A DNA stretch of 64,000 nucleotides. It comes from Sinorhizobium arboris LMG 14919 (lineage in GTDB: Bacteria; Pseudomonadota; Alphaproteobacteria; Rhizobiales; Rhizobiaceae). The stretch is taken from contig NZ_ATYB01000014.1 of assembly GCF_000427465.1 (NCBI RefSeq), forward strand, positions 953,570-1,017,569. The letters run 5' to 3'. Shown one piece after another: positions 48,944 to 55,336 of this stretch. Numbering within the stretch: position 1 is the stretch's first letter; every line of letters starts with the position of its first letter. Under the pieces are notes generated by a model. It made no database searches, was not told where the DNA came from, and saw only the letters and a list, made by a program, of their open reading frames with translations. The position numbers and the translations under genes are program-made.

Positions 48944-49022
<79 letters not shown>

Positions 49023-49149: not shown

Positions 49150-49788
49150 TCATTTGTTCTTCCTTTGTGCCTTTTTCGCACGAGAAAGTGATCCCAAGGC
49201 CTCCGCGACCTCCTCATCGAGGACGTGAGCATAGCGCGTCGTCGTCTTGATATCGGCATGGCTCAATGCCTTCTGGACCGTTTTCAGGTTTCCGGTCTTG
49301 CGCAGGAGCTTCGTCGCCAGATCATGTCGGAAATCGTGGAAGCGAAAATCCTCGACCTTGGCCTTCGCCCTGATTTTCTTCCACTGCGTTTTGAGGCCGC
49401 TATAGGTGATCGGGTACCGATCGCCCTTGTTCCTTCCTTCCCCGTCTCCCTTGTATGACGCTTTCCCTGTCCGGGTCCGCGCCGCCTGGTACGTGAAGAC
49501 GAATTTCGGGTGATCACCGCGGAGCGGCAGCAGGATATCGCGGACGGTGCTCGTGATCGCCGTCTTGACCAGCCGGCCGCCTTTGCCGGTCTTGGTGATC
49601 CACCCCGTCTGCCAGTCGACCTCCGACCAGCGCAGAATGCATTCCTCGAGGCGAAGTCCCGTCGCGCGAACGAAATCGAAGATCGGCAGATAATCGGACC
49701 TGGTCGCAAGCTCGATCGCTGCACCCTCGGTCGCCTTCAACTCGCGGACGCGCTCTTTCGGCTGATACGAGGCGCATCGGCTTTTCAT
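49150..49788 (-). pseudogene. Tyrosine recombinase (integrase), N-terminally truncated
   Basis: Only the catalytic domain is present: RATGLRLEECI with the first Arg, FRFHDFRHDLATKLL with the His-x-x-Arg box, and LSHADIKTTTRYAHV with the second His and the Tyr nucleophile. The start at 49788 (MKSRCASYQ) is arbitrary; homology begins near there, and the core-binding domain and arm-binding region expected upstream are missing. A longer frame to 49872 adds unrelated residues. Position next to the tRNA agrees with a role in forming this island. Activity is doubtful. Confidence 0.82.
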
Positions 49789-49920
49789 CTTTCGTCTACT
49801 CACGGCCCCACGCGTGCTGGGCACGTCGCCGCTGGACGAGCTCAAGAAGAGTTGGCAACGCAGCCCTGACAATCAGCCCGGCGGTTTGCTGCCGGGCCTA
49901 CACTTGCATCGGAGATCGAC

Positions 49921-50109
49921 ATGGCTGGATACGGCGATAATGACGGCTTCACGGCGTACGCAACCGAAGCGGGCTATGTCTTTCCCGATGATACAACCGA
50001 TGCCCAGAAGACCGCCGCACGTAGAGCGTTGGGCACTGGGCATCCTTTGCGCGGAGCGGTCGACCGTGGTACAAACCCGGCGGCGGTATGTGCAGGACAT
50101 GTGGGATAG
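49921..50109 (+). pseudogene. 5' fragment of a phage DnaT-like/head-region gene, inverted
   Basis: MAGYGDNDGFTAYATEAGYVFP and the next dozen residues resemble the start of the phage DnaT-like family usually encoded just after the major capsid gene. Resemblance ends near residue 36 (AARR), after which the frame runs into unrelated sequence. It has GGAG before the ATG and a hairpin (GCCCGGC/GCCGGGC) upstream. Its strand is opposite to the capsid fragment, pointing to an inversion. Confidence 0.45.
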
Positions 50110-50192: not shown

Positions 50193-50318
50193 TCACACCA
50201 ACCTTTTCGAGATCGACGCTTCAAGGTCGACGTCGCGGGTCTCACCCGGTCGGATGTAGACCGCCCGCCCCTGGGAGCGGACGCCCTGCAGCGCCTTGCT
50301 GTTGTTGGTGACCTTCAT
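50193..50318 (-). CDS. Small phage protein downstream of the capsid gene
   Basis: A 41-residue peptide (MKVTNNSKALQGVRSQGRAV at its start, with an IRPGETRDVDLE stretch later) lying 38 bases after the capsid fragment on the same strand. Such short proteins follow DUF2184 capsid genes in related phages. The C-terminus may be cut by the junction with the inverted fragment. Confidence 0.5.
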   Translation of the reverse strand: MKVTNNSKALQGVRSQGRAVYIRPGETRDVDLEASISKRLV

Positions 50319-50356: not shown

Positions 50357-51040
50357 TTAGGCAGCGGCACCGGGCAGACGCCATTCGGTACCGCCGGTAC
50401 GGGCGATGATGCCGGTTTCGAAGCCCATGATGGACTTCTGGCGCGGCTGGAGGACACGGCGCGGCATCGGCAGGTCGAAGCGGAGAACCTCCGAATCCCG
50501 GCGATACACGACCATGCGGCCGCCGCCGTCCTGGGAGGCATTCGCGAGCTCGCGCAGCGGCTGGATGTCGAGCTGCTGACCCGTTGCCGCCGTGTAGACG
50601 TTGTTGCGGCGGATGTACTCCAGGAGGGTCGGGAGGCCGTCGCCTTCGCCGAGTCGACGAGTGGCGATGAGCCGGAAGGCTTCCGGCGGAAGGCGGAGGG
50701 TGTCCACCCATTCGACTTTCGACGTGTTCTCCCGAACACTGGAGATCAGGTCGTTGATGTCGCGGAGGATCTGGTCGTTGGACTTCGCCGACCAGAAGGT
50801 CGAAGAGCCCGTGCCATCCGTGGCAACGTCGACACGCGAGACCTGCGGATCGTTGACGAAGCCGGTCCAGTTCTTCTCGGTCGTGCCGACCATGGCAGCC
50901 GAGTTGAGCAGGCGCTCGACCTTTTCGGAAGCCGACATGGCCTTGGTGCTGTTCAGATCGATGCCGTAAAGACCAGCCTGATTGACCTCCTCGAGGTTCC
51001 ACTCCCAGCCGGAGCTGATCATCGCGAAGTCATATCTCAT
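50357..51040 (-). pseudogene. DUF2184 phage major capsid protein, N-terminally truncated
   Basis: The 227 residues from the ATG at 51040 match the C-terminal two thirds of DUF2184 capsid proteins (ISSGWEWNLEEVNQAGLYGI, then a region ending MGFETGIIARTGGTEWRLP). The N-terminal third is missing: the sequence directly upstream belongs to a different phage gene (DUF2213). The reading frame itself is open, so a shortened protein could be made, coupled to the short DUF2213 peptide by ATGAGATATGA. Confidence 0.7.
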
Positions 51041-51149
51041 GACCGGCATAGAGCTGGATGCCGGTGCGAGCGGTGCGAACGTCCGCAACAAGGTAGCCGT
51101 CGGCGGTCCGTCGCGTGCCCGCGATCGGTGCAAGGTCTGTGAATTTCAT
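51030..51149 (-). pseudogene. DUF2213 phage head-protease-like gene, first 39 codons
   Basis: The minus strand reads MKFTDLAPIAGTRRTADGYL, continues to AGHEI and stops. This is the start of DUF2213 proteins, which are several hundred residues long and precede the DUF2184 capsid gene. A deletion has joined codon 38-39 to the middle of the capsid gene. The stop arises at the junction. Confidence 0.65.
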
Positions 51150-51202
51150 TGTGGTCAATCCTTGCTGCGTGCTACCCGCGATGCGTGCAGGAGATGAAAT
51201 CA

Positions 51203-51520
51203 ATGGAAAAGCTCGTGGACCTTGAGGCGCCGCAGATCTGGCGCGGCGCTATCTTCCGCGTGAAAGGCTCTCATCCCTACGAAGAGCTGATAGACTTCAT
51301 GTTAGTGGAAACTACCGAGGCAGCACGCCCTCTTGGGATTATGGTGGCCACGGGTCACAGCGCGGGACACACGTTCCTTCATCTGCCGCCGGAGGCACTC
51401 GCCTCAAGAGACAAGGCCATTTCTACCGCCTGGCTGAAGGCAAACTGGATGCAGTGGGTCTACCCCGAGTGCCCGGTCGAGGAAGTGCTCTTTATCGAGC
51501 GTTACGTGATTCAACAGTAG
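51203..51520 (+). CDS. Imm45-like immunity protein
   Basis: A 105-residue soluble protein starting MEKLVDLEAPQIWRGAIFRV. The IWRG, SHPYEELIDFMLVE, TGHSAGHTFLHLPPEA and AWLKANWMQWVYPECPVEEV pattern resembles immunity family Imm45 of polymorphic toxin systems. I recall the family but could not check it. GGAG at 51190-51193 is 9 bases from this ATG and too close to the one at 51194. No toxin gene is nearby, so it would be an orphan immunity gene. It points away from the DUF2213 fragment 53 bases to its left. Confidence 0.62.
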   Translation: MEKLVDLEAPQIWRGAIFRVKGSHPYEELIDFMLVETTEAARPLGIMVATGHSAGHTFLHLPPEALASRDKAISTAWLKANWMQWVYPECPVEEVLFIERYVIQQ

Positions 51521-51527
51521 GCGACCG

Positions 51528-51836
51528 ATGGATTTCGAGACGTTGGAGTATCAGGAAATCGCCGCCAAGTTGAAGCGCGACGGATGGGCAATCAAATACA
51601 TCTGGTCGGGCGAGCGCGATGCCTTCAAAAATTGGCTCTCCGAGAGCCACGGGATTAAGGCAACCGACGTCGACGGCGGCTACTCGTTCTGGATTGTTGA
51701 TCACTACTGGGAGGCTCCGCCTACCGCGAAGAACAGCTATGAAGCCTGGTATAACTTTGGCTTTGAGCTAGAACTCGACCCAGATTTAACGCCCGATCGC
51801 GTCGGGTTTAGGCTTGGCCGGTCTAGAAGACGCTGA
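51528..51836 (+). CDS. Small protein of unknown function, cargo of the island
   Basis: A 102-residue soluble protein rich in Trp and Tyr (KRDGWAIKYIWSGERDAFKNW, HYWEAPPTAKNSYEAWYNFG). It starts 7 bases after the Imm45-like gene and is probably co-transcribed. Size, composition and context resemble immunity proteins, but I do not recognise a family. The basic end LGRSRRR may come from readthrough into the junction with the portal fragment, which ends 23 bases further on. Confidence 0.6.
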   Translation: MDFETLEYQEIAAKLKRDGWAIKYIWSGERDAFKNWLSESHGIKATDVDGGYSFWIVDHYWEAPPTAKNSYEAWYNFGFELELDPDLTPDRVGFRLGRSRRR

Positions 51837-51859
51837 CGACGGCGATATGGCGGCGGCAG

Positions 51860-52168
51860 TCAGTTCGCGCCCCATAGGCGCGCCTTGATGCGGGTCTCCA
51901 GCAGCTTGCCCATGAGGTTCAGCCGCTTTTCTTCCGCTTCGATCGCCTCGATCTGCGGCTTCTTCGCCTGCCAGTCGCGGATGCTGTCGAATGCCGGGAT
52001 GTCGACGATCTTCTTGGGGAGCCAAGCGCCCCGATAGGCGTTGAGCAGCTCCTTCTGGTGAGCATCGGCATCGAGCAGAACGTCGAGGCCGCCCTTGTCC
52101 CTGCTGGTGCCGATGTTGGCTACCATGTTCGTCAGGCTGTCGCGGACGAATGCAATTATGTTACCCAT
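51860..52168 (-). pseudogene. DUF1073 phage portal protein, first 102 codons
   Basis: MGNIIAFVRDSLTNMVANIG opens the fragment, and LLNAYRGAWLPKKIVDIPAF and EAIEAEEKRLNLMGKLLETR follow; this is the N-terminus of DUF1073 portal proteins (normally 400-500 residues). It ends WGAN-stop, just where homologues continue with a Gly/Ala/Leu-rich segment, so the 3' three quarters are deleted. Confidence 0.72.
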
Positions 52169-52226
52169 ACCCGTTCTAGTTGATTCACTATTCCGCCGGC
52201 TTAACAGCCCAGCAGAGGGTACGAAT

Positions 52227-52781
52227 TTGAAATCGGTGGTCATCGCCAGTTTGAACGCCAAACTCCAACCGATTCACCGCGGTGAGTTGGAAGACGCATT
52301 CGACGATCTCATGCGAAGGAAGGGCTTTGGCATGCGTGTGGTCGGCGGAGGAACGTTGCAGGAGGAGAGCGGAGAGATTGCTCATTGTGATATCGAGATC
52401 GAAATCGACGAACTCAACGATGAAAACGTCCAGCTTGTAGTTCGTGCCTTGGAGTCAATGCTCGCTCCCAAAGGCTCCCGCTTGCATATCCCCGCTCAGG
52501 ACCGTGTTCTCGATTTTGGCAGGCACGAAGGGTTGGCGCTCTACATCAATGGCACCGACCTGCCGCCTGAGGTTTATGCCAACAGTGACGTCAACTTCGT
52601 CTTTCAGGAATGTGACCGCCTCTTGGAAGGCGCGGCCTTTGTAAACAGCCACTGGGAAGGCCCTTTGGAAACCGCGCTATACATGTATGGAAAGAATTTC
52701 CAAGACATGTACCAACGGCTGCTGCCTCTTCTGGAAAACTACCCGCTGTGCCAGAAGAGCCGTATCGTCCAGATCGCGTAA
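52227..52781 (+). CDS. Conserved protein of unknown function, cargo of the island
   Basis: A 184-residue acidic soluble protein. The TTG at 52227 is chosen because AGAGGG lies 8 bases upstream and the protein-like composition starts there (LKSVVIASLNAKLQPIHRGE, with the first residue translated as Met). An upstream ATG at 52095 would run through the portal fragment on the other strand. Blocks such as DFGRHEGLALYINGTDLPPE and SHWEGPLETALYMYGKNF look conserved, but I cannot name the family. Possible immunity protein by context only. Confidence 0.62.
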   Translation: MKSVVIASLNAKLQPIHRGELEDAFDDLMRRKGFGMRVVGGGTLQEESGEIAHCDIEIEIDELNDENVQLVVRALESMLAPKGSRLHIPAQDRVLDFGRHEGLALYINGTDLPPEVYANSDVNFVFQECDRLLEGAAFVNSHWEGPLETALYMYGKNFQDMYQRLLPLLENYPLCQKSRIVQIA

Positions 52782-52795
52782 GTTACATCGTCATT

Positions 52796-52969
52796 TCAGA
52801 CATTCGCCAAGGTGAACGTGCTGGCGCTCAACAGTGCATTGAACTGGCGCGTGATCGTCTCCCCGAATTCCTTCCTGACTGCCTCAACGACGATCGAAGG
52901 TGCGTCGAAGCAGGCGAGGCTTTGTACGATTAAGGTTTTCACCTCCTCGCTGAGTTTTCCTTTTGCCAT
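52796..52969 (-). pseudogene. DUF2280 phage terminase-region gene, first 57 codons
   Basis: The minus strand reads MAKGKLSEEVKTLIVQSLAC and continues FDAPSIVVEAVRKEFGETITRQ, the start of DUF2280 proteins encoded beside phage terminases. After the Arg-Gln the sequence departs from the family and stops at 57 residues; homologues are over 100. The junction lies 14 bases from the end of the cargo gene on the opposite strand. Confidence 0.65.
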
Positions 52970-53041
52970 GTCTGTGTCAGGCTCCGGTCAGGTCGACTTA
53001 TCACCCGAAGGCGAACATCAGTGGATCCGCTGCACCCTGTC

Positions 53042-53341
53042 ATGAACAACACGAAGTGGGACGAGCTGCGCTTGGCGATGCACGCGCTTGATCCGCGGCC
53101 GCTCTGGCGTTGCAAGGACGTCAACGGCCACTATTCCGATGATGACCGCGAGTGGTTCTATCATTTTCGGTCAGGCGGATATGCGAGCATTCTCTACGCA
53201 GACATCACGGCTGATGATCCCTCTCATCGAGAGGCGATCAGAGCTGCCCTGCAGGCGATCCACCTACCTGGGGAAGAGACGGAGGCTGGGTTCCGGGTCT
53301 TCGGCTACGGCGCGAAAGGCCAGACGTTAGACTACCTCTGA
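53042..53341 (+). CDS. DUF6678-like small protein, cargo of the island
   Basis: A 99-residue soluble protein (MNNTKWDELRLAMHALDPRP at the start, REWFYHFRSGGYASILYADI in the middle, GFRVFGYGAKGQTLDYL at the end). It resembles what I remember as DUF6678, a family of unknown function. The ATG at 53042 is favoured over GTG at 53021 by this similarity. It starts 72 bases from the DUF2280 start and ends two bases before the metallopeptidase stop. Confidence 0.6.
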   Translation: MNNTKWDELRLAMHALDPRPLWRCKDVNGHYSDDDREWFYHFRSGGYASILYADITADDPSHREAIRAALQAIHLPGEETEAGFRVFGYGAKGQTLDYL

Positions 53342-53343
53342 CC

Positions 53344-53966
53344 TCAAGCCACCTTGAGCTGGCAGGTGCCGCAAGTGTGGGCGATATGTGCCCGGGCGAT
53401 CTCCGGCGGCCGGTTGGCTGCATCTACGATAGCGCGGATACCGGCTGCATCTGCCCCATAGCGGCGGACGACGCCAACGAACTCTTCCACGACATGGCCA
53501 CGGATGGTGAAGACCGGCCGTCCGGTTGATCGGCTGAATTTCGGAGCGCCGAATGCATCGGTCTCCTGCGCTGCGTGGTAGAGCTCGTGCTCGACCAGCG
53601 CCATGAACTCGGCGTCACCACATGCCCGGCAATATTCGGCGTCAAGCGTGATGATGAAATCCGGGACGAAGCCGAACCACTGCTTGATCTGCATCTCGGC
53701 ACGGGCGCGGGCCCACTTGCCCATAGCGCCCTGAGGCTTTCCCTCTTTGCACTGGCCGATGATGCGGCGGCCCTTGCAGCTGTTCTCAACGACGGTCCAG
53801 AGGAAGCCGATCTCGGCATGCGTTTAGGTGCGCGTGCTCCTCGTTGTGGAGCGGAGAAGCCGGGTCCAGGAAAGTTGCCTCTACCCGTTCCGGCAAGTCG
53901 TCGGGTGGGGACGAAGCGTGGAGAGTTGATGTCCTCGAAGATTGAGGATGGCGGCTGAGGCCTCAC
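53344..53966 (-). pseudogene. Phage putative metallopeptidase, three frameshifts
   Basis: The last 126 codons are intact and include the zinc site VEHELYHAAQ (HExxH). Going upstream the homologous residues change frame three times: AEIGFLWTVVENSCKGRRII in one frame, LPERVEATFLDPASPLHNEE in a second, QLSTLRPHP in a third, and SSIFEDI in the frame of a GTG at 53966. That GTG overlaps the stop of the preceding phage gene. The cysteine pair CGTC and natural end are kept. As it stands no full protein can be made. Confidence 0.7.
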
Positions 53967-54315: not shown

Positions 54316-54525
54316 ATGAAGAAGCTTTTTTCGAAGTTGGCCCGCGATGAATCGGGTGCAACCGCTATTGAGTACGGTCTCATCGCTGCTCTCATCTCTG
54401 TTGCGCTCATCGGTGGCGCCGGTCTGCTTGGTGAATCGCTCGATACCACGTTCACCAATCTCTCGACCACGTTGGACAATAACCAGCCTGGTGGTGGCGG
54501 CGGTGGTGGTGGCGGACAACAATAA
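54316..54525 (+). CDS. Flp family type IVb pilin with a polyglycine tail
   Basis: A 69-residue prepilin. MKKLFSKLARDESGATAIEY has the basic leader and the Flp processing site (Gly before ATAIEYGLIAALISVALIGG, the hydrophobic N-terminal helix with the required Glu). The mature pilin is about 54 residues and ends PGGGGGGGGGQQ, an unusual run of nine glycines. No tad/cpa assembly genes are in the window, so it would depend on a Tad system elsewhere. A terminator follows. Confidence 0.85.
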   Translation: MKKLFSKLARDESGATAIEYGLIAALISVALIGGAGLLGESLDTTFTNLSTTLDNNQPGGGGGGGGGQQ

Positions 54526-54784: not shown

Positions 54785-55216
54785 ATGAAGTTCAGAGAGT
54801 TGACATCTGTCGGCCACAACATCGCCGATTCTTTCGCGAGCGGGATGGGATTCTTGATCGGCGTCTACGAAATGGACGTATTTCGAGAGGCTGCGGCCAG
54901 CCCCGAGGGTTACATTCTTGTCGATTTCATCGCAGGCACATCCTCGGGCGCTCAGCCTTCGGCGTCATTGGCGAAAGCAATCTCTCATTACGCACGAGCC
55001 TTGGATGGGCTCTGCCAGCGACATGGAAATAGAGCTGAAGCTTTCCGCGAGCTAAAAGCCCGCTACTCGCTGGATTCGCGAGGGCCCCGTTTCGTGGTCA
55101 CGGTCGAAGACCAAAGTGGCCGTCGCTCGGTGGATGAATATCTCGGGCTGCCGGGCAGACGCGTAATGGAACTGGACGACCTAGGTCGAGTTCGCCCCAA
55201 GCGGCGGTATACCTAG
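54785..55216 (+). CDS. Unrecognised protein at the right end of the island
   Basis: A 143-residue soluble protein starting MKFRELTSVGHNIADSFASG. It has a hydrophobic MGFLIGVY block, a Ser/Ala-rich middle, a helical HYARALDGLCQRHGNRAEAF part and a basic end (RVRPKRRYT). No family is recognised. It lies 73 bases before the right attachment repeat and has no clear Shine-Dalgarno sequence. It could be another orphan immunity or regulatory protein. Confidence 0.6.
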   Translation: MKFRELTSVGHNIADSFASGMGFLIGVYEMDVFREAAASPEGYILVDFIAGTSSGAQPSASLAKAISHYARALDGLCQRHGNRAEAFRELKARYSLDSRGPRFVVTVEDQSGRRSVDEYLGLPGRRVMELDDLGRVRPKRRYT

Positions 55217-55289: not shown

Positions 55290-55336
55290 CTGGGGGTCAA
55301 GGGGTCGTGGGTTCGAATCCCGCCGCTCCGACCATT
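55290..55336 (+). repeat. attR: exact 47-bp copy of the tRNA-Pro 3' end
   Basis: Identical to 48976-49022. It lacks the 5' acceptor arm, D arm and the 5' half of the anticodon stem, so it is not a second tRNA gene but the distal attachment site. Confidence 0.9.

Follow-up and report, generated by a model that had tools for sequence, protein, structure and literature searches.

The 64,000-nucleotide stretch of the Sinorhizobium arboris LMG 14919 genome analyzed here (contig NZ_ATYB01000014.1, positions 953,570 to 1,017,569; referred to as the window) belongs to an assembly of 6.85 Mb in 7 contigs and contains a 6.4-kb prophage remnant, which is bounded by exact 47-bp direct repeats of the 3' end of a tRNA-Pro gene. 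The hallmarks of a site-specific temperate phage, i.e. attachment (att) repeats, an integrase and a head module, are all present in this remnant (Table 1). Eight genes of the head module survive as pieces, and six open reading frames (ORFs) antisense to the phage genes are still open, namely an Imm45-family gene, P2, P3, a DUF6678 gene, a Flp-pilin-like ORF and an ORF of 143 amino acids (aa). These antisense genes, which we refer to as cargo, and the joints between phage genes that hold them are the subject of this analysis.

The original prediction, made from the sequence and its ORFs, had placed four small plus-strand genes starting at 51203, 51528, 52227 and 53042 between minus-strand phage fragments and had called one of them Imm45-like and one DUF6678-like. 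Indeed, all four ORFs are present at these starts, and both family identities lie above the Pfam cut-offs (74.9 bits against a curated cut-off of 25 for PF15572, likewise above for PF20383); the Imm45 gene has no NCBIfam match. For P2 and P3, nothing convincing was found in Pfam, NCBIfam or PADLOC (best E 0.05-0.3), and none of the four genes matched a PADLOC profile at E up to 1. The structural model of P3 contains two ferredoxin-like domains (predicted local distance difference test score 95), with no telling match. The Flp-pilin-like ORF is likewise antisense in five other prophage loci, and the 143-aa ORF has no Pfam match.

Relatives of the remnant were gathered by DNA, by portal protein (19 loci in genome contigs and the best 80 of 144 in viral contigs) and from annotated records. 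All four window genes recur in prophages of this lineage, each in the same joint and in the same orientation to the phage genes, i.e. antisense. The DUF6678 gene is found in the metallopeptidase/DUF2280 joint of four loci with 86-97% identity, and its distances to the two neighbours are 6 + 72 in L067 and L135 and 6 + 73 in L098, in L126 and in the window. P3 lies in the joint between the large terminase gene (terL) and the portal gene in L129 and L133 (87-89% identity; distances of 14 + 60 in L129 and 18 + 59 in the window), the slot of L133 holding a second cargo gene too. The Imm45 gene occupies the portal/DUF2213 joint of L104 and L106 (80%) and of L019 (78%; L044 is the same record), at a distance before DUF2213 of 55 in L104 and L106 and of 54 in the window, and P2 is located in the same joint of L098 (77%), a partly decayed locus, in which the DUF6678 gene has a stop at codon 6. 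L067, L104, L106 and L129 are viral contigs of 52-55 kb; in these and in L133 portal, DUF2213 and capsid are full length, the portal being of a long type in L067 and of a short type elsewhere. Since the four genes are found in the same joints of more complete phages, they are native cargo, and the stubs in the remnant stem from later deletions. From this we conclude that the pattern itself is real and that, as read from the sequences, the order of events is cargo first, decay afterwards. The proposal that phage modules were replaced by cargo, leaving stubs behind, is not borne out: the observation named beforehand as speaking against it, the same genes at the same positions in more complete phages, was made for all four genes, with the limit that the best relative of P2, in L098, is partly decayed.

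The phage pieces fit this order. The minus-strand stubs of DUF2280, portal and DUF2213 are real and recognized by Pfam; the DUF2213 match lies below the curated cut-off, but this stub is 92% identical over 39 residues (tblastn) to the start of the full-length DUF2213 of a related prophage (L021). That the fragments end where a cargo gene ends or where a deletion joins is correct in a divided way, since only the portal stub stops beside the end of a cargo gene (stops at 51860 and 51836), whereas the DUF2213 stub is joined to the capsid gene and the DUF2280 stub to terL, both by plain deletion joins. The DUF2280 ORF is a chimera, whose tail end comes from the 3' end of terL. Decay that had not been listed before includes the frameshift in the metallopeptidase gene and the inverted g9 fragment. 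Directly 5' of DUF2280 (window 52970-53000), a doubled motif, TGACCGGA..CTGACA / TTGACGGGACTTTGACA, was recognized by eye across loci with differing cargo; it is possibly an operator or a late promoter.

Table 1 Features of the prophage remnant and its integration site. Positions are those of the window; E, E-value.
Feature	Position	Strand	Evidence
tRNA-Pro(GGG), integration target	48944..49020	+	ARAGORN
attL, 47-bp tRNA 3' end	48976..49022		exact direct repeat of 55290-55336
Tyrosine integrase fragment	49150..49872	-	PF00589 E 1e-24
Head gene g9, first 35 codons (35/164), inverted	49921..50025	+	tblastn of L021 g9
g8 N-terminal stub, 34/113 residues, 85%	50193..50318	-	tblastn
Major capsid protein without N-terminus, residues 71-322 of 324	50357..51070	-	PF09950 E 1e-58
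DUF2213 stub, first 39 codons (39/381)	51030..51149	-	PF09979 E 0.003, below curated cut-off
Imm45-family cargo gene, portal/DUF2213 slot	51203..51520	+	PF15572 E 8e-21
P2, 102 aa, no assigned family, portal/DUF2213 slot	51528..51836	+	10 homologues at E 0.001
Portal stub, first 102-103 codons of 607	51860..52168	-	PF06381 E 4e-10
P3, 184 aa, terL/portal slot	52227..52781	+	259 homologues at E 0.001
terL 3' end, residues 437-465 of 465	52796..52885	-	tblastn; fused to DUF2280 stub
DUF2280 stub, about 40-43 codons of 154	52841..52969	-	PF10045 E 2e-12
DUF6678 cargo gene, metallopeptidase/DUF2280 slot	53042..53341	+	PF20383 E 2e-14, above cut-off
Phage metallopeptidase, frameshift near 53822	53344..53896	-	PF18894; tblastn pieces 1-24 + 26-183 of 183
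Flp-pilin-like ORF (name by eye)	54316..54525	+	79-88% homologues in L076, L083, L094, L114, L116
143-aa ORF	54785..55216	+	95% identical in second remnant L016
attR, 47-bp tRNA 3' end	55290..55336		exact direct repeat of 48976-49022

Slots in the head operon were surveyed across the lineage. The survey started from 121 loci (L016-L136), with a skeleton match in 114; L016, L018 and L027-L029 were excluded as remnants or fragments, and the resulting 109 head-module loci were dereplicated to 79, duplicate fetches of one record being removed (e.g. L019/L044). A slot was considered filled if the gap was at least 100 bp, and the survey was restricted to joints of at most 3500 bp and, where genes overlap, to overlaps of at most 200 bp. 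Five joints are often filled: portal/DUF2213 (66/75), metallopeptidase/DUF2280 (23/34), terL/portal (11/36), g8/g9 (10/58) and g9/g10 (42/64). Five others were never found filled in these loci, namely DUF2280/terL (0/33), DUF2213/decoration gene (dec) (0/68), dec/capsid (0/68), g11/g12 (0/62) and g14/g15 (0/19), and capsid/g8 (1/58) and g13/g14 (1/41) were filled once each. The five often-filled joints contained an ORF in 131 of the 152 filled slots, and in 111 of these 131 the best ORF was antisense. Depositors' annotations likewise place genes on the opposite strand in a prophage of S. meliloti Ak57 (at portal/DUF2213 and before DUF2280) and in Rhizobium phage RHph_TM3_3_3 (before DUF2280). 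Accessory genes that lie on the opposite strand at phage joints, as originally described, are thus a feature of the lineage, and relatives carry different cargo at the same joints. The same joints are found filled and empty, so that cargo genes separate phage genes that are direct neighbours in related phages, which is what characterizes a moron.

Cargo is faithful to its joint. None of the 27 recurrent antisense families (present in at least two dereplicated loci) occurred in more than one joint, compared with 23.6 families on average, and a minimum of 18, in 2000 trials with shuffled labels. Since cargo keeps its joint, exchange through recombination of the flanking genes is a better fit than a mobile cassette. 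In six pairs of loci, both portal/DUF2213 flanks are at least 93% identical; the joint between them is unrelated in four of these pairs and shared in two. In this comparison, the joint of L067 measures 336 bp and that of L130 2 bp. A conserved antisense gene of 53 aa, hydrophobic as judged by eye, is located at g9/g10 in 34 dereplicated loci (e.g. L084:13340-13501) and perhaps has a fixed phage function such as exclusion.

From these results we conclude, with a probability of roughly 0.85, that the remnant is a decayed temperate phage of a tRNA-Pro site, whose lineage, present in Sinorhizobium and related bacteria, maintains cargo slots at fixed joints of the head operon, mostly occupied by short genes on the opposite strand; these would be morons expressed in the lysogen and exchanged through their flanks, and protection by Imm45 is the least certain part of this reading. 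The phage would have integrated into tRNA-Pro and then decayed by deletions. By analogy to the tab gene of Pseudomonas phage JBD26 (discussed below), the morons would be read from promoters of their own while the late operon is silent, resulting in lysogenic conversion, and recombination in the conserved flanking genes would exchange them. With least certainty, Imm45 might shield the lysogen against a competitor's nuclease toxin, and the cargo might have been retained in the remnant because the genes are still useful to the host. The stops of cargo and phage genes in the window are spaced by 2-23 bp, which leaves little room for a terminator.

A number of observations weigh against this reading. 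The contents of slots were assigned with a custom codon score, the best ORF was sense in 20 of the 131 slots, and 21 of the 152 filled slots had no ORF. Three joints outside of this count are less orderly: g10/g11 was filled in 53 of 61 loci (24 antisense only, 19 sense only, 9 both, 1 none), g12/g13 in 41 of 42, with a single recurring antisense family (19 slots antisense only, 3 with both strands, 19 without an ORF) and g15/g16 in 13 of 13, 9 of them without an ORF. The portal/DUF2213 joint of RHph_TM3_3_3 holds a large sense gene, and common descent can also contribute to joint fidelity. A scan for the sigma-70 consensus found no site before the four cargo genes, and the number of sites was no higher than in shuffled sequences; the sole plus-strand sigma-70-like site lies before the Flp-like ORF, in a scan at chance level. 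A colicin-E3-type domain (PF09000), the expected kind of partner for Imm45, was found in 0 of the 33 genomes of the genus; no control genome matched either, and therefore this count does not show absence. Finally, the retention of cargo while the phage genes decay is only suggestive, since the cargo genes are short and breakpoints would miss all of them by chance with a probability of about 0.1 (rough estimate); selection for cargo retention in the remnants is for this reason not claimed.

The cargo genes themselves appear to be real and under coding constraint, as judged from substitution patterns. The ratio of nonsynonymous to synonymous substitution rates (dN/dS) of the four window genes was 0.05-0.25 in 38 of the 41 homologue pairs with a value, including 15 of 15 pairs with the window copy; 7 further pairs, 2 of them window pairs, were saturated. 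Higher values were obtained for one P2 pair (0.27) and twice between Imm45 copies that are nearly identical and differ by few changes (0.48 and 1.17). None of the window copies contains a stop, and 22 of the 23 copies compared are stop-free. Most of the measured change predates the remnant. In the same genome, two further remnants of the lineage carry open cargo (L016 and L018), three in all. The one in L016 (L016:8300-18300, C4 about 1564-1574 kb) contains P2 and a 131-aa cargo gene; it also holds the 143-aa gene with one of two nearly identical Imm45 copies on either side, and of DUF6678 only the 3' end is left. The one in L018 (L018:7000-12400, on the 139-kb contig C1) has a DUF6678 gene that is 92% identical and open over 102 codons; the DUF2280 gene there is more complete, and further small antisense ORFs are present.

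To what extent the cargo belongs to immunity families was assessed by a family scan of 73 representative antisense genes encoding 50 aa or more, a set that covers cargo from joints other than g12/g13 and g14-g16. Only 12 of the 73 matched a Pfam family at E 0.001 and 61 matched none. The named families are Imm45, DUF6678, Imm33-like (at terL/portal, L055), Rap1a (at g8/g9, L024), lipocalin, SLATT_5, ankyrin, DUF4304, putAbiC, trypsin-like (a PADLOC PDC-S45 match), VanZ and HEPN. Eight of these 12 are immunity- or defence-linked (Imm45, Imm33-like, Rap1a, SLATT_5, putAbiC, HEPN, PDC-S45 protease and ankyrin), PDC-S45 and ankyrin being linked through PADLOC candidates, and HEPN and ankyrin being generic families. 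Immunity families proper account for 3 of the 73 representatives (Imm45, Imm33-like and Rap1a); Imm33-like and Rap1a proteins are known from toxin contexts. The description of the locus as a poly-immunity island therefore goes too far, as only 1 of 4 window genes and 3 of 73 lineage representatives belong to an immunity family, and the genes are interleaved with phage genes, in contrast to the several tandem immunity genes that characterize polyimmunity loci.

Imm45 has been described as a neighbour of the toxin domain Tox-ColE3 (PMC3482391). In agreement with the original prediction that no toxin lies beside the window genes, no cognate toxin was seen at the window Imm45 gene or in the gene calls around four chromosomal copies. 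The family is present in 6 of the 33 genus genomes; in four genomes of the genus (L031-L033, L035) the chromosomal homologue stands alone among host genes, the L031 copy being broken, and homologues of P2 (L034) and P3 (L030) likewise stand alone. No record of the phage collection matched Imm45 at E 1e-5. Relatives of Imm45 occur in 12 plasmid records; one of the four neighbourhoods viewed, in Pantoea dispersa, is an array of orphan modules of the contact-dependent inhibition (CDI) type, and three are without one. Relatives of P3 were found in 4 plasmid records, of which one was viewed: on the Vibrio plasmid p1ST2 (L140:1-10540) a P3 relative (50%) is part of a series of single genes, all pointing in the same direction, which looks like an integron cassette array. 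The window Imm45 gene is an orphan, as in polyimmunity loci. Immunity to toxins of rivals is plausible for it, and only plausible, because this role rests on the family of one window gene and on two families elsewhere in the lineage; the three other window genes have no such family support.

One part of the phage itself appears to be linked to cargo. The long portal protein (L021) carries a C-terminal Acb1 domain directed against the cyclic oligonucleotide-based antiphage signaling system (CBASS) (residues 468-607, PF23474 E 1e-30; L021:8852-9274), and portal lengths are bimodal, with 440-519 aa in 48 of 77 loci and 600-629 aa in 29. All 46 short portals with DUF2213 in view have a filled joint downstream, compared with 20 of 29 long ones, the other 9 being empty (dereplicated, kinship uncorrected), which links cargo and the loss of Acb1. 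The portal tail is the only place where a phage module may have been traded for cargo, a limited form of replacement. The head protein g11 is a MuF protein (PF04233) and was considered as a possible MuF toxin; this idea was dropped, since 61 of 63 copies have the ordinary length of 340-359 aa. The g11 of L049 has 699 aa and possibly a C-terminal extension, in which a toxin domain was not sought.

An alternative with a standing only somewhat short of even odds is that the antisense genes serve the phage, by excluding superinfecting phages, by defending against other phages or by opposing transcription that silences the late genes in the lysogen; the Imm label would then reflect a family relation only. 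It has the slot model in common with the explanation preferred here and differs in the job of the genes. It is favoured by the SLATT_5, putAbiC, HEPN and PADLOC PDC-S45 proteins among the cargo of the same slots, by the 53-aa gene that recurs at g9/g10 and by Tab, the product of a minus-strand moron in a terminase joint, being an anti-phage protein (PMC10884400), but is countered by the description of Imm45 beside Tox-ColE3 (PMC3482391), by two further immunity families by name (Imm33-like, Rap1a) and by the one Imm45 relative in the CDI-type orphan array of Pantoea dispersa, with three other neighbourhoods lacking one. That the cargo is neutral baggage, its short ORFs surviving in the remnant as small targets, is unlikely: deletions and frameshifts everywhere else in the remnant, the lone chromosomal Imm45, P2 and P3 homologues without toxin or phage, one Imm45 copy of which is broken, and the early stop in the L098 DUF6678 gene agree with it, whereas the low dN/dS values and the stop-free copies, even if most of this change lies outside the remnant, and three lineage remnants with open cargo in one genome do not. 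Repeated replacement of phage modules by defence or immunity genes on the opposite strand, resulting in stubs and a poly-immunity island, is very improbable, because, despite the portal stub ending beside P2 and the filled joints of all 46 short portals, the four genes lie in the same joints elsewhere beside full-length portal, DUF2213 and capsid genes (L067, L129, L133, L104, L106), two of the stubs are joined to phage genes, and a single window gene belongs to an immunity family.

We regard the slots as a novel form of phage moron, set against the following background. Defence hotspots have reportedly been found in P2/P4-type phages by Rousset et al. No literature joining prophage, orphan immunity and moron was found in the covered sources, which leave out most subscription journals. 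The nearest precedent is Tab of Pseudomonas phage JBD26, a small minus-strand gene in the late operon between terminase genes, for which a promoter of its own and transcription from the prophage are described (PMC10884400). Tab differs in having one slot, one anti-phage function and a sense-strand anti-Tab, whereas several slots and many unrelated families, some of them linked to toxin immunity, are found here, with promoters that are putative. The accessory genes, or regions of genomic plasticity, of Pseudomonas Mu-like phages are similar as variable short genes at fixed loci between conserved genes, and their route of acquisition has been called mysterious; they differ by including anti-CRISPRs, and the available account does not mention the strand (PMC4378225). 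The phiLM21-like prophages of S. meliloti are tRNA-integrated and of siphovirus type, with a lipocalin gene in 14 prophages and one 'immunity protein 32' and two SMI1/KNR4 proteins listed (PMC12429752). They and the present lineage probably overlap as phage groups, but that account, in its available part, lists contents without slot positions, strand rule or joint specificity. Polyimmunity loci (PMC3482391), some of which adjoin XerC/D recombinases, and the orphan islet SAIDI-1 (PMC7400221) resemble the window in immunity-family genes without toxins and differ in being arrays of immunity genes, whereas in the window single genes are dispersed among phage head genes. A head module is also tied to toxin and immunity biology by the MuF polymorphic toxins that temperate phages carry (PMC5576092); the g11 MuF proteins differ from these in their nearly uniform length.

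The slots provide a testable rule on where phage genomes tolerate accessory genes, on which strand, and how these are swapped. As 61 of the 73 cargo representatives have no Pfam family and 8 of the 12 named ones are immunity- or defence-linked, the slots also represent a short list of candidate genes. A broader proposal, which we put forward tentatively and hold to be rather less likely than not, is that dedicated reverse-strand slots, each with its own cargo pool, give lysogens exchangeable toxin immunity and anti-phage genes, that late transcription shuts the cargo off at induction and that decay leaves orphan immunity genes. If this were true, the reverse orientation would let the lysogen read the cargo and opposing late transcription would silence it on induction, and decayed prophages with surviving cargo would be a source of the orphan immunity genes that are found without toxins in chromosomes.

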